DNA of 64,000 nucleotides from Mariniflexile litorale (lineage in GTDB: Bacteria > Bacteroidota > Bacteroidia > Flavobacteriales > Flavobacteriaceae): the NCBI RefSeq assembly GCF_031128465.2, contig NZ_CP155618.1:1373501-1437500 (forward strand), given 5' to 3'. Positions 4,110 to 60,611 of this stretch are shown here, in pieces. The first letter of the stretch is position 1. The number at the start of each line of letters is the position of its first letter. The notes beneath the pieces are model-generated. The model was not told where the DNA came from. It worked only from the letters and a program-made list of their open reading frames with translations, and made no database searches. Made by a program: the position numbers and the translations under genes.

Positions 4110-5561
4110 ATGAGTAATAAATATACAGAGGACGATTTAAGAGAAGAGCTTAAAACCAAAGAATATGAATACGGATTTTATACTGATATAGCTTCCGACA
4201 CATTTCCTATTGGTTTAAATGAAGATATTGTTCGTGCAATCTCTCTTAGAAAAGAAGAACCAGAATGGATGACCGAATGGCGCTTAGAAGCCTTTCGTGC
4301 TTGGGAGAAAATGGTTGAACCAGAATGGGCAAATGTGCATTATGCAAAACCAGATTTCCAAGCTATTTCATACTATTCTGCACCTAACAGCAAGCCTAAA
4401 TACGATAGTTTAGACGAAGTAGACCCTGAGTTATTAGCAACATTTGCTAAACTTGGAATTTCGATAGATGAACAAAAAAAACTATCTAATGTAGCCATGG
4501 ATGTGGTGGTAGATTCGGTTTCGGTAGCGACTACATTCAAGAAAACCTTGGGTGAAAAAGGCATTATATTTTGTTCTATTTCAGAAGCGTTAAGAGAACA
4601 TCCAGACTTAGTAAAAAAATATATTGGTACGGTAGTCCCTCAAAAAGACAACTTTTATGCTGCTTTAAACTCAGCTGTTTTTAGCGATGGGAGTTTCTGT
4701 TACATTCCAAAAGGCGTTCGTTGCCCAATGGAACTTTCAACTTATTTCAGAATCAATCAAGCAGGAACGGGTCAATTTGAAAGAACATTGGTGATTGCAG
4801 ATGCAGGTAGTTATGTTTCTTATTTAGAAGGTTGTACCGCACCAAGTCGTGATGAAAATCAATTACACGCAGCTGTTGTAGAACTTATTGCTTTGGATGA
4901 TGCTGAAATAAAATATTCAACCGTACAAAACTGGTATCCAGGAAATGCTGAGGGTAAAGGTGGTGTTTTCAACTTTGTAACTAAACGTGGTTTATGCGAA
5001 AAGAACGCTAAAATATCCTGGACTCAGGTAGAAACTGGAAGTGCAGTTACTTGGAAATACCCATCATGTGTATTGAAAGGTGATAATTCGGTTGGTGAAT
5101 TTTATTCAATCGCCGTAACTAATAATTACCAACAAGCCGATACAGGTACGAAAATGGTTCATTTGGGAAAAAACACCAAGTCGACTATTATTTCTAAAGG
5201 TATTTCAGCAGGAAAATCACAAAACAGTTACCGAGGACTGGTTAAAATTAGTCCGAATGCAGACAACGCACGTAACTTTTCGCAATGTGATAGTTTACTT
5301 ATGGGCAACGAATGTGGTGCACATACCTTTCCTTACATTGAAGTGAAAAATAAATCGGCAAAAATAGAGCACGAAGCAACTACTAGTAAAATTGGTGAAG
5401 ATCAAATTTTCTATTGCAACCAACGTGGTATAGACACCGAAAAAGCGATCGCATTAATAGTAAACGGATTTAGTAAAGAAGTATTAAATAAACTTCCTAT
5501 GGAGTTTGCTGTAGAAGCTCAAAAACTATTAGAAATTAGTTTAGAAGGCTCGGTAGGATAA
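4110..5561 (+). CDS. sufB: Fe-S cluster scaffold subunit SufB
   Basis: SufB is the scaffold in the SufBC2D complex on which sulfur from SufS/SufE and iron are assembled. The 483-residue length and landmarks match the family: the N-terminal YGFYTDI region, [28 protein letters not shown] and the parallel beta-helix core, and a C-terminal block with [11 protein letters not shown] and [11 protein letters not shown] that contacts SufC. Lies between sufA and sufC in the expected order. Confidence 0.98.
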
Positions 5562-5587
5562 AAATAAATATTCAAAATGAAAACTCC

Positions 5588-5618
5588 AAATTCCAACGAA
5601 TAGTATCCATTGGAATTT
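5588..5618. repeat. inverted repeat in the sufB-sufC gap
   Basis: AAATTCCAA (5588-5596) and TTGGAATTT (5610-5618) form a perfect 9-bp dyad with a 13-base loop. No U-tract follows, so it is not a classic terminator; it could be an mRNA stability hairpin or a dispersed-repeat remnant. Confidence 0.5.
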
Positions 5619-5651
5619 AGAATTTAAGTATTGCAATTTCAAATATAAATT

Positions 5652-6404
5652 ATGTTAAAAATTGAAAATTTACACGCAAGTGTTGAAGATAAAGCCATTT
5701 TAAGAGGCATAAATTTAGAAGTAAAAGCGGGAGAAGTTCATGCAATCATGGGGCCCAACGGTTCTGGAAAAAGCACATTAGCCTCTGTAATTGCAGGGAA
5801 AGAAGAGTACGAAGTAACCGAAGGAAGTATCTTTCTTAATGATGAAGATATCGACGAATTAGCTGCTGAAGAGCGTGCACATAAAGGTATCTTTTTATCT
5901 TTTCAATACCCAATTGAAATCCCAGGCGTATCGGTTACTAATTTCATGAAAACAGCTATAAATGCAAATCGTAAAGCTAAAGGCTTAGACGATATGCCTG
6001 CAAAAGATATGTTGAAATTAATACGAGAAAAATCGGAGCTATTAGAAATTGATAGAAAATTTTTATCACGTTCTTTAAACGAAGGCTTTTCGGGAGGTGA
6101 AAAAAAACGTAACGAGATTTTCCAAATGGCGATGCTAGAACCTAAATTGGCTATTCTTGATGAAACCGATTCTGGTTTAGATATCGATGCCCTTCGTATA
6201 GTTGCCAATGGTGTTAACAAACTTAAAAGTAAAGACAACGCGGTTATTGTGATTACGCATTACCAACGTTTGTTAGATTACATTGTTCCAGATTTTGTAC
6301 ATGTACTTTATAACGGCCGTATTGTAAAATCGGGCGGCAAAGAATTAGCGCACGAACTTGAAGAAAAAGGATACGACTGGATTAAAGAAGAAGTGAACGC
6401 GTAA
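5652..6404 (+). CDS. sufC: Fe-S assembly ATPase SufC
   Basis: ABC-type ATPase that dimerises on SufB and SufD and drives conformational change during cluster assembly. Of 250 residues: Walker A GPNGSGKS at 34-41, Q-loop FQYP at 84-87, SufC-specific signature FSGGEKKR at 146-153, Walker B LAILDETDSG at about 167-176 and H-loop His in VITHYQRLL near 203. No membrane partner, as expected for this soluble ABC protein. Only 3 bp separate its stop from the inverted-repeat cassette that splits it from sufD. Confidence 0.98.
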   Translation: MLKIENLHASVEDKAILRGINLEVKAGEVHAIMGPNGSGKSTLASVIAGKEEYEVTEGSIFLNDEDIDELAAEERAHKGIFLSFQYPIEIPGVSVTNFMKTAINANRKAKGLDDMPAKDMLKLIREKSELLEIDRKFLSRSLNEGFSGGEKKRNEIFQMAMLEPKLAILDETDSGLDIDALRIVANGVNKLKSKDNAVIVITHYQRLLDYIVPDFVHVLYNGRIVKSGGKELAHELEEKGYDWIKEEVNA

Positions 6405-6407
6405 TTT

Positions 6408-6439
6408 GTTTTAAGTTTGAGATTCAAAGTTTCAAGTTA
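6408..6439. repeat. left arm of 32-bp inverted repeat
   Basis: Starts 3 bp after the sufC stop codon and ends immediately before the ATG of the four-helix-bundle remnant. It pairs with 6844-6875 at 26 of 32 positions when compared by hand. Confidence 0.75.
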
Positions 6440-6830
6440 ATGGCAACTATACAACGATTTGAGGATTTAGAAAACTGGCAGGAAGCTAGAACATTATTTA
6501 ATCAAATTAAAAGATATTGCACTTGAAACAGAATTAAAGCACGATTTCAAACTCAAAGATCAAATAAAAGGTTCTTCTGGTTCTGTAATGGACAATATTG
6601 CTTAAGGTTTTGAACTTGATGGCAATTTGGAATTCAGACAATTTTTATCAATAGCAAAAGGTTCGGCAGGAGAAACAAGGTCGCAATTATATAGAGTATT
6701 TGATTCAAATTACATTTCAGAAGAAAAACTAAAAAAATTAGTAAGCGATTATGAACAATTAAGCAAGAGAATATCTGGCTTTATATCATATTTAAATAAA
6801 AGAGATTTCAAAGGAAACAAGTTTAAATAA
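6440..6830 (+). pseudogene. four-helix-bundle protein (S23 / 23S rRNA intervening-sequence family), broken
   Basis: The N-terminus starts at ATG 6440 (MATIQRFEDLENWQEAR) but shifts frame near the A-rich run around 6500, after which the family sequence continues in another frame (LETELKHDFKLKDQIKGSSG, then MDNIA). A TAA at 6603-6605 replaces the Glu expected in the conserved AEGFE motif. The remainder, from 6627 ([20 protein letters not shown]), is intact to the TAA at 6830. One frameshift plus one nonsense codon make it a pseudogene. Family members are about 120-130 residues, function unsettled, and are often found as inserts in rRNA or intergenic DNA. Confidence 0.88.
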
Positions 6831-6843
6831 AATTTTGAGTAAG

Positions 6844-6875
6844 CAACTTGAAACCTTTAACCTTAAACTTGAAAC
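6844..6875. repeat. right arm of 32-bp inverted repeat
   Basis: Reverse complement of the left arm (6408-6439) with six mismatches. It ends 10 bp before the sufD ATG, so it occupies the position where the sufD ribosome-binding region should lie. Confidence 0.75.
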
Positions 6876-6885
6876 TATTTAAAAA

Positions 6886-8199
6886 ATGGATTTAAAAGAA
6901 AAATTAATATCATCCTTTTTAGCATTCGAAGAACGTGTAGATGTAGATGCATACGTACACGACGTTAGAAATGAAGCTATCAAAATATTTGAAGAAAAAG
7001 GCTTTCCTACCAAAAAGGAAGAAGCTTGGAAATACACCTCTTTAAACAGTGTTTTAAAGGAAGATTATAGCGTATTCCCAAAAAAGGAAAATGCTATAGA
7101 ATATAACGATGTAAAAAAATATTTCATTCACGATATAGACACCTTTAATGTGGTATTTATAGATGGGAAATATTCATCGCATTTATCGCAAACCACACAC
7201 GACGGTTTAGATGTTTGTTTAATGTCTTCGGCATTAACAAAACCTAAATACCGTTTAATCATTGAAAACTATTTTAACAAAGCAGCTACAAAAGATAGTT
7301 TACCATCGTTAAATACAGCATTTTCATGTGAGGGGGCCTACATTCACATTCCAAAGAATAAAATGGTTCAGAAGCCTATTCAAATCATTTATTTTTCAAC
7401 AGGAAATGAATCGGCCACCATGTTACAACCACGAAATTTAATTGTAGCGGATGAGAATTCACATGTACAAATTATAGAACGTCATCAAAGCCTAACCAAT
7501 AATCCTGTTTTAACCAACAGTGTGACCGAAATTTTCGCAAACAAACGCTCTATTGTCGATTACTATAAAATTCAAAACGACAACCAAAACGCGACGCTAA
7601 TAGACAATACGTTTATAAAACAAAAGCAAGAAAGTATCGCATCCGTGCATACATTTGCTTTTGGCGGTAAATTAGTTCGTAATAATTTGAATTTCTATCA
7701 AATGGGCGAACACATTGAATCTATTTTAAAAGGTGTTACCATTATTGGCGATAAACAACATGTAGATCACAATACGCTCGTACACCATATAGAACCTAAC
7801 TGTGAAAGTCATCAAGATTATAAAGGAATTTTTGGCGAGAACTCTACAGGTGTTTTTAACGGTAAAATTATTGTTGAAAAATTAGCTCAAAAAACCAATG
7901 CTTTTCAAGCCAATAATAACATTTTAATAAGTGATAAGGCAACCATAAACACCAAACCGCAATTAGAAATTTTTGCTGATGATGTAAAATGTTCTCACGG
8001 CTGTACCATTGGGCAATTAGACGAAAGTGCCATGTTTTACATGCGTTCTCGTGGTATCCCCGAAAAAGAAGCCAAAGCACTTTTAATGTATGCCTTTAGT
8101 AATAACGTATTAAGTTCGGTTAAAATTCCAGAAATTAAACAGCGTATTACTAAGATTATTGCTAATAAATTAGGTGTTAAAATTGGGTTTGATTTATAG
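6886..8199 (+). CDS. sufD: Fe-S cluster assembly protein SufD
   Basis: Partner of SufB in the SufBC2D complex, needed for iron acquisition. The 437-residue protein shows family landmarks: KKEEAWKYTSL in the N-terminal domain, AYIHIPKNK..QKPIQI opening the beta-helix, and the C-terminal CSHGCTIGQLDE...FYMRSRGIPEKEAKALLMYAF block that binds SufC. Start ATG at 6886 gives MDLKEKLISSF, which fits. Expression from the suf promoter has to pass through the inserted cassette upstream. Confidence 0.97.
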   Translation: MDLKEKLISSFLAFEERVDVDAYVHDVRNEAIKIFEEKGFPTKKEEAWKYTSLNSVLKEDYSVFPKKENAIEYNDVKKYFIHDIDTFNVVFIDGKYSSHLSQTTHDGLDVCLMSSALTKPKYRLIIENYFNKAATKDSLPSLNTAFSCEGAYIHIPKNKMVQKPIQIIYFSTGNESATMLQPRNLIVADENSHVQIIERHQSLTNNPVLTNSVTEIFANKRSIVDYYKIQNDNQNATLIDNTFIKQKQESIASVHTFAFGGKLVRNNLNFYQMGEHIESILKGVTIIGDKQHVDHNTLVHHIEPNCESHQDYKGIFGENSTGVFNGKIIVEKLAQKTNAFQANNNILISDKATINTKPQLEIFADDVKCSHGCTIGQLDESAMFYMRSRGIPEKEAKALLMYAFSNNVLSSVKIPEIKQRITKIIANKLGVKIGFDL

Positions 8200-8230: not shown

Positions 8231-8267
8231 TTCATGATATAATTAATTATATTAATTTGAAGCTATT

Positions 8268-8340
8268 TCCCGCTATCCGCTATATCTTTTTCGCTTTGAA
8301 AAAAAAGCAAAAAAGGATGCCGCTACCATCGGGGCTAAAC
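8268..8340. repeat. candidate dispersed intergenic repeat before sufS
   Basis: The stretch has a higher G+C content than its surroundings at both ends (CCCGCTATCCGCTA and GGATGCCGCTACCATCGGGG) around a central imperfect stem: 8286-8297 pairs with 8304-8315 except one position. It resembles repeat families that recur between flavobacterial genes, but only one copy of this type is in the window, so dispersal is inferred. Confidence 0.4.
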
Positions 8341-11556: not shown

Positions 11557-12501
11557 ATGAAAAAAACACTTTTATTATTTGCATTATTTATTGGCATAAT
11601 AGCCGTAAATGCTCAAACAAAAGAAGAACTTCAAGCCCAAAAATCTGAAAAACAAGCTGCAGCAAATGCTTTACAAGCTGAAGCAAAAGCTTTGCAAGCA
11701 CAAATTGATGCCCTACCTGGTTGGAGGGTTGGTGCTTTTGGTACCATTGGTGGTAGTTTATCAAACTTCAGCAAATGGTATTCACAAGGTGCTCCAAACA
11801 ACTCATCTGGTAACATAGGCTTTACTTTTAACGGCCATGCCAACTTGATTCAAGAAAAATTTTTTTGGAGAAATGCCTTAACAACCAATCTAAATTGGGT
11901 GAAGCTTGACAATAAAGACAACCCAAACGATGACGATAGTTTCAACCCTACTACCGATGTGTTTAATATTTCATCTTTATACGGAAGGAACATTACAAAA
12001 ACATTAGCTGTTTCAGGTTTAATGGAATATAGAACGACATTATTAGATAACTTTAACGATCCTGGATATTTAGATTTAGGTGTTGGTGCTACTTGGACAC
12101 CTATAGAGAATTTAATAGTGGTCATTCATCCTTTAAACTACAACTTTGTTTTTGCTGATAATGATACTGTTTTTGAATCATCATTAGGTGCCAAAATTGT
12201 TGCAGATTATACAAGACAAATTGGAGCCATTAATTTTAAAACGAACTTCTCAACATTCCAAAGCTATAAAAGTGGGGATTTATCAAACTTTACATGGACA
12301 AACTCTTTTAGCTACACACTTTGGAAAATGATTGGTGTTGGTTTTGATTTTGGCTTAAGAAGTAACAAGCAAGAAGCTTTAAACTATGCATTAGGACAGT
12401 TTGATCCATTAGCAATTCCTGCTCAAACAGAACCCACGTTTGATAATGTAGATAATGATTTACAAACATATTACACCGTTGGATTGAGTTATAAATTCTA
12501 A
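11557..12501 (+). CDS. DUF3078 family outer-membrane beta-barrel protein
   Basis: A 314-residue exported protein. A Sec signal peptide (MKKTLLLFALFIGIIAVNAQ) is followed by an Ala/Gln/Lys-rich coiled coil (about 21-52) and then a DUF3078 beta-barrel-like region with GGSLSNFSKWYSQGAPNNSS, RNALTTNLNWV and a C-terminal strand ending YTVGLSYKF (aromatic last residue, typical of outer-membrane barrels). Function unknown. It follows the suf cluster on the same strand but has its own leader and ends at a strong terminator. Confidence 0.85.
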   Translation: MKKTLLLFALFIGIIAVNAQTKEELQAQKSEKQAAANALQAEAKALQAQIDALPGWRVGAFGTIGGSLSNFSKWYSQGAPNNSSGNIGFTFNGHANLIQEKFFWRNALTTNLNWVKLDNKDNPNDDDSFNPTTDVFNISSLYGRNITKTLAVSGLMEYRTTLLDNFNDPGYLDLGVGATWTPIENLIVVIHPLNYNFVFADNDTVFESSLGAKIVADYTRQIGAINFKTNFSTFQSYKSGDLSNFTWTNSFSYTLWKMIGVGFDFGLRSNKQEALNYALGQFDPLAIPAQTEPTFDNVDNDLQTYYTVGLSYKF

Positions 12502-12522
12502 TAACCTTACCCTTTATATAAA

Positions 12523-12663
12523 CAAAAGAGGCTGTCTGAAAAGTGTTATTCTGAGTCATATTGAGCCTGTCGAAATATTCAAACTTGTTGATAATCAATA
12601 TCAGTTTCGACAAGCTCAACCTGACAAAGTAAACAAAATACACTTTTCAGACAGCCTCTTTTG
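12523..12663. terminator. nested-palindrome bidirectional terminator
   Basis: Convergent genes end here (stops at 12501 and 12670). The outer arms 12523-12546 and 12640-12663 are perfect 24-bp inverted repeats with A/T tracts at both outer ends, so either strand can form a stem ending in a U-run. Nested inside, 12561-12575 and 12605-12619 form a second inverted repeat (14 of 15), of the TTGAGCCTGTCGAAA type, which resembles dispersed palindromes common in flavobacterial genomes. Confidence 0.85.
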
Positions 12664-12669
12664 TTTTAA

Positions 12670-59048: not shown

Positions 59049-60560
<1,512 letters not shown>

Positions 60561-60562
60561 TT

Positions 60563-60606
60563 CAATTGATAATTATCAATTGACAATTATCAATTATCAA
60601 TTATAA
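60563..60606. repeat. palindrome and AATTATC repeats between atpD and atpC
   Basis: CAATTGATAATTATCAATTG (60563-60582) is a perfect 20-bp palindrome, followed by further AATTATC units up to the atpC leader. Possibly a processing hairpin that sets the beta:epsilon expression ratio, or a simple-repeat expansion. Confidence 0.6.
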
Positions 60607-60611
60607 AAATT

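Follow-up and report, generated by a model that had tools for sequence, protein, structure and literature searches.

Between sufC and sufD of Mariniflexile litorale lies a single unit that takes up the whole gap between the two genes and that consists of a broken S23 gene (23S_rRNA_IVP) enclosed by two inverted arms. Coordinates below are those of the window, by which we mean the entire 64,000-nucleotide stretch of contig NZ_CP155618.1 that was analyzed. The features of the locus are as follows:

5652 to 6404, + strand: sufC, the upstream neighbor, in the same operon and orientation as the S23 unit
6402 to 6438, + strand: 5′ arm, a degenerate 7-mer array with the inward reading TAATTTGTTTTAAGTTTGAGATTCAAAGTTTCAAGTT, complementary at 30 of 37 positions to 6845 to 6881
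6440 to 6830, + strand: S23 / 23S_rRNA_IVP pseudogene, with an extra A in 6509 to 6512, an in-frame TAA at 6603 to 6605, and a terminal TAA at 6828 to 6830
6845 to 6881, + strand: 3′ arm, the inverted partner array, whose complement read inward gives five AG units
6886 to 8199, + strand: sufD, the downstream neighbor of the S23 unit

An earlier note on this DNA had described a 468-bp unit filling the gap, with 32-bp inverted repeats pairing at 26 of 32 positions around one S23-type gene and nothing else. With the sufC stop codon at 6402–6404 and the sufD start at 6886, the first of these statements was borne out, and the 5′ arm even begins inside the sufC stop codon. The pairing of the inner arms (6408–6439 and 6844–6875) is exactly as claimed, and the inverted repeat extends further, to 6402–6438 and 6845–6881, with 30 of 37 positions paired. 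The S23/IVP ORF is indeed the sole gene of the unit, matching PF05635 (23S_rRNA_IVP) with an E value of 5e-29 in a search for which the frame was restored and the stop masked as X; what the description lacked is that this copy is a pseudogene, broken by a frameshift and an in-frame TAA. The upstream and downstream flanks of the unit match with a score of 42.5, and none of 5000 dinucleotide shuffles reached this value (mean 17.5, maximum 39). In the predicted RNA structure, the unit is closed by its arms; the overall fold energy is ordinary (z of −1.36). The unit sits between sufC and sufD and not within an rRNA gene, and an Rfam scan of the window returned no rRNA. Near-identical sisters of this copy were absent from its own genome.

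PF05635 has nine matches in the same genome, spread over about eight loci and for the most part broken, and inspection of the flanks showed that most of these loci are bordered by inverted degenerate 7- or 8-mer arrays. Examples of the units are TAGTCTA, TAGTCTT, and TAGACGT at one locus, AAGCTAT, ACGCAAT, and AGGCTTT in the groES–groEL gap, and GATTCGTT with GATTTGTT at another. Each arm consists of roughly four to six degenerate units of 7 or 8 nt, inverted with respect to the other arm, and the unit varies between loci and matches within a locus. In the inward reading, C is rare in the arms (8%) and AG mostly occurs once per unit (67%). Over 52 S23 loci from six congeneric genomes, the mean own-arm score was 35.4 against a permuted maximum of 23.4 (10,000 permutations), with 51 of the 52 own arm pairs ranking among the top seven; the upstream flank of the window unit was itself best matched, among these 52 loci, by its own downstream flank. 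Autocorrelation in S23 flanks peaks at lags 7, 8, 14, 16, and 21, and these peaks are absent from coding DNA. As a control, the flanks of 146 ordinary small genes from the same genome gave no own-arm match (20.0 versus 19.7). Shuffles, permutations, and control genes together rule out chance pairing in AT-rich DNA, and the locus-specific units at the 52 loci of the genus rule out a fixed terminal repeat common to S23 loci. A search for the window arms beside other S23 genes had been proposed as a check; each locus has its own 7- or 8-mer unit, so looking for these particular arms elsewhere would have missed the rule. Two variations on the arrangement were observed. In the upstream flanks of L019, L020, L046, L030, and L047, a complete palindrome (both arms on one side) takes the place of one arm per side, which suggests nested or duplicated arms. 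At L011 and L031, the arms near the S23 gene are direct and not inverted, with AAACCCAT units on both sides.

The association of S23 genes with such arms extends well beyond this genus. S23/IVP genes were found in 116 of 148 sampled Bacteroidota genomes, with up to 16 copies each, and 29 S23 loci from across the phylum gave an own-arm score of 31.2, compared with 22.9 as the maximum of 10,000 permutations. For 79 named S23 loci from many phyla, the corresponding values were 35.4 and 21.8 (again the maximum of 10,000 permutations); these loci, with names per record titles, include Nitrospirota, Desulfobacterota, Clostridia, Alpha- and Betaproteobacteria, Chloroflexi, Acidobacteria, SAR324, and two CPR lineages. 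Another 68 S23 loci, from 15 non-Bacteroidota genomes and including 15 that overlap the named set, scored 34.9 versus a maximum of 20.7 in 10,000 permutations. In many bacterial phyla, S23 genes and arms of this kind go together, and most of the sampled S23 genes are enclosed by them.

Movement of S23 units was sought at several levels. Recent transposition was not detected in the window's genome or genus, where all pairs with at least 80% core identity are orthologous, and the Bacteroidota set held no S23 pair with at least 80% core identity at different sites. A Desulfobacteraceae MAG, G192, supplied a moving family. Its S23 cores are 84–98% identical at unrelated sites and are accompanied by octamer arms, each containing five AG octamers, and by outer hairpins. 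The ends of the family are precise, beginning GGATCATCTCCAGATTAGTTGG and finishing CCAACTAATTGGGAGAAGAAC(C). Used as queries, these ends gave 43 and 50 matching places, or about 45 end copies, and nine right ends are 98–100% identical with different flanks. Derivatives of 83, 253, and 337 nt keep both ends and leave no room for an intact S23 gene together with its arms. Since the S23 genes of G192 occur at unrelated sites with arms and precise ends, the moving unit includes the arms, which travel together with S23 in this genome. The proposal that terminal inverted repeats would define an element type around S23 genes therefore holds for the enclosure of the gene and, in this one genome, for an element that has many copies, precise ends, and derivatives lacking S23, and it does not hold for a common terminal sequence. 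Candidate target duplications of G192 are 9 nt in L328 (CTTCATTTA) and 5–6 nt in L337 and L348, with none clear in L329; own pairs give 5.3 nt versus 4.2 nt for mismatched pairs, and target-site duplication is suggestive at best. The terminal hairpins of this family (L323–L382) have complementary loops, ATTAGTTGG and CCAACTAAT, and a kissing interaction between element ends is possible on the basis of this complementarity.

The small size, the inverted ends (GGATC and GAACC), the internal-deletion derivatives that retain both ends, and the possible short target duplications of G192 recall MITEs. These units could be plain DNA elements of that kind, with the arms as terminal inverted repeats containing subterminal sites for a transposase encoded elsewhere and with S23 as cargo. 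We regard this account as quite improbable. Within the window's lineage no fixed end sequence is shared across loci, and common ends occur only within the G192 family. Random cargo would not be expected to show the link between arms and S23 seen over many phyla in the loci surveyed, and a DNA transposon would not be expected to show a sense bias in operons, where 98 of 116 S23 genes are co-directional with both neighbors.

Comparison of the sufC–sufD gap among relatives turned up the empty sites that had been suggested as worth seeking. In 30 genomes, S23 was recognized in this gap only in the window's own genome. Some relatives have an empty spacer of 9–22 nt (G022, G010, G013, G021, and others), and some have an S23-less palindrome, which is clear in G001, G004, G005, and G011 and weaker in G002, G024, G019, and G003. 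An S23-less inverted heptad array also stands in the sufB–sufC gap of the window (5561–5651; AAACTCC and AAATTCC, then GGAATTT and AGAATTT), and similar GGAATTT arrays occur in the same gap of G001, G002, and G003. At 60560–60611, a 51-nt co-directional gap holds the S23-less palindromic heptad array ATTGATAATTATCAATTGACAATTATC. Repeats occurring alone, with no tie to S23, had been named as an observation that would tell against an S23 element. Such S23-less palindromes do exist, including in the sufC–sufD gap of congeners, yet in many phyla the majority of S23 genes lie between arms. Palindromic heptad arrays might still be independent intergenic repeats, arising by slippage and hairpin-templated correction, with S23 inserting into their loops much as IVSs insert into rRNA hairpin loops. 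The palindromes of similar style in the sufC–sufD gap of G001, G004, G005, and others and in further gaps fit this idea, as do the locus specificity of the arms and the S23 genes that lie beside or between complete palindromes (L019, L020, L030, and L047). We nonetheless consider it unlikely, given that in G192 the arms and S23 of one family moved jointly to many sites, that most S23 genes in many phyla are enclosed by arms, and that S23-less arrays were few in a 404-kb sample, as judged with a detector dominated by terminators.

Three further features of the window were recorded. On the − strand at 8262–8340, between sufD and the next gene (cysteine desulfurase-like), there is an Rfam Flavo-1 RNA. 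A long, near-perfect nested inverted repeat of MITE-like appearance, with outer sequence AAACAAAAGAGGCTGTCTGAAAAGTGT and inner sequence TTTCGACAAGCTCAACCTGAC, lies between convergent genes at 12501–12669. Finally, two small genes that closely resemble each other, FGHDYQVSKKVTYHVKEYTCSHC and FGHDFKVTRNVTYHVKEYACKTC, stand in tandem at 1852–2438 and have a CxxC motif.

Orthologous S23 loci stay in place across genera, including those in the sufA–sufB, groES–groEL, and nuoC–nuoD gaps, the genes being named from visual inspection of the flanks. Arms of close orthologues are interchangeable, and in distant orthologues both arms have changed in concert. Over 89 orthologue pairs, which are not independent of one another, the own minus cross arm score was +5.8 (58 positive and 28 negative). 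At one locus with 75% core identity, own scores were 32.5 and 40.5 compared with cross scores of 16 and 13. In intact orthologous S23 genes, substitutions by codon position number 124, 63, and 521, and because the changes fall mainly at third positions, S23 is under purifying selection. Even so, S23 is erratically present or broken between close species. A domesticated regulator that benefits the host, possibly a TRAP-like RNA-binding pentamer acting on its own 5′ arm, at the AG units next to the start codon, and tuning operon expression, would accord with this selection, with long vertical retention in the three named gaps, with an AG once per unit, and with the five chains of two PDB relatives. 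It accords poorly with the erratic presence and breakage of S23 among close species, with units that are not alike between loci, and with the presence in G192 of dozens of copies that have moved and of deletion derivatives. On balance, we doubt that S23 is such a regulator.

The closest known systems are the 23S rRNA IVSs of Coxiella and Leptospira, which share with the S23 units a length of about 430–480 nt, a single S23 ORF, and complementary ends. In Coxiella, a 28-bp stem that RNase III cleaves carries the S23 ORF in its loop, and three tandem heptamers (GACAGAT, sequence as published), variable between strains, directly precede the ORF.(PMC4990558) Inverted repeats around S23, which had been taken as a pointer to an element type, were therefore already known for rRNA.(PMC4990558) The units described here differ in that they occupy the spacers of protein operons and not rRNA, in that their arms are degenerate, locus-specific 7/8-mer arrays, and in that a multi-copy family has moved within one genome. 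Heptamer arrays of TAACTGA in Beggiatoaceae, cyanobacteria, and Bacteroidetes are also intergenic repeats near start codons, and unlike the arms they are direct repeats of one fixed heptamer; we found no mention of four-helix proteins, 23S rRNA, or intervening sequences in that paper.(PMC4679880) In the open-access literature that we searched, intergenic S23 genes were nowhere described as having heptad arms, and neither the rule of 7/8-mer arrays, nor its reach over many phyla in operon gaps, nor a moving family appeared there. Another set of relatives is the Avd proteins of diversity-generating retroelements, S23-family homologues that form pentameric four-helix bundles. Such retroelements have a linked reverse transcriptase and template/variable repeats; the cassette here holds S23 alone.

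With these comparisons in place, the explanation that we hold to be probable as a whole is that the window copy is a decayed S23 element, built like an IVS and placed in a spacer within a protein-coding operon, that has lost its protein and kept its arms, and that such elements work through an arm-stem RNA, S23 binding, and mobilization in trans. An intact member would be a non-autonomous element of minimal content, with one gene, akin to the 23S rRNA IVS and residing in an operon spacer. We infer an RNA-hairpin function, pentamer binding, and a mobilizing enzyme. The arms would pair in the transcript and leave the S23 ORF in the loop. By analogy with the rRNA IVS, RNase III may then cut out the loop and spare the neighboring cistrons. 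The S23 homopentamer may bind the repeat units of the arms. We know of no catalytic activity of S23, and because of this the enzyme for movement would presumably be supplied in trans.

AG units were also counted in each arm. In the first set, AG units per arm peak at five (35 arms, versus 21 and 12 for the neighboring counts), which agrees with the five AG octamers per arm of the G192 family. After stricter redundancy removal, the excess at five gave P values of 0.22 (5′ arm) and 0.013 (3′ arm), and in other phyla the count shows mainly a fall-off after five. The PDB relatives 2gsc and 2rld have five chains each, likewise in agreement with the peak in the first set. Binding of the arms by an S23 pentamer as a five-unit ring is offered here as a hypothesis because strict removal of redundancy leaves the peak weak.

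The 23S rRNA IVSs appear to be one particular form of a broader class of S23 elements. A bolder and more tentative possibility is that S23 elements are bacteria-wide, one-gene mobile ribonucleoprotein elements, whose homopentamer might bind, as a TRAP-like ring, about five AG-bearing units of 7–8 nt at either end of the transcript or element that encodes it. If this is true, the rRNA IVSs would be only those S23 elements that landed in rRNA loops. The rule of inverted, locus-specific 7/8-mers makes the target of the pentamer, the movement of the element, and the pairing of S23 with a stem in rRNA open to experiment. A further implication is that many genes in operon gaps with the annotation "four helix bundle protein" would belong to elements and not to the operons in which they are found.
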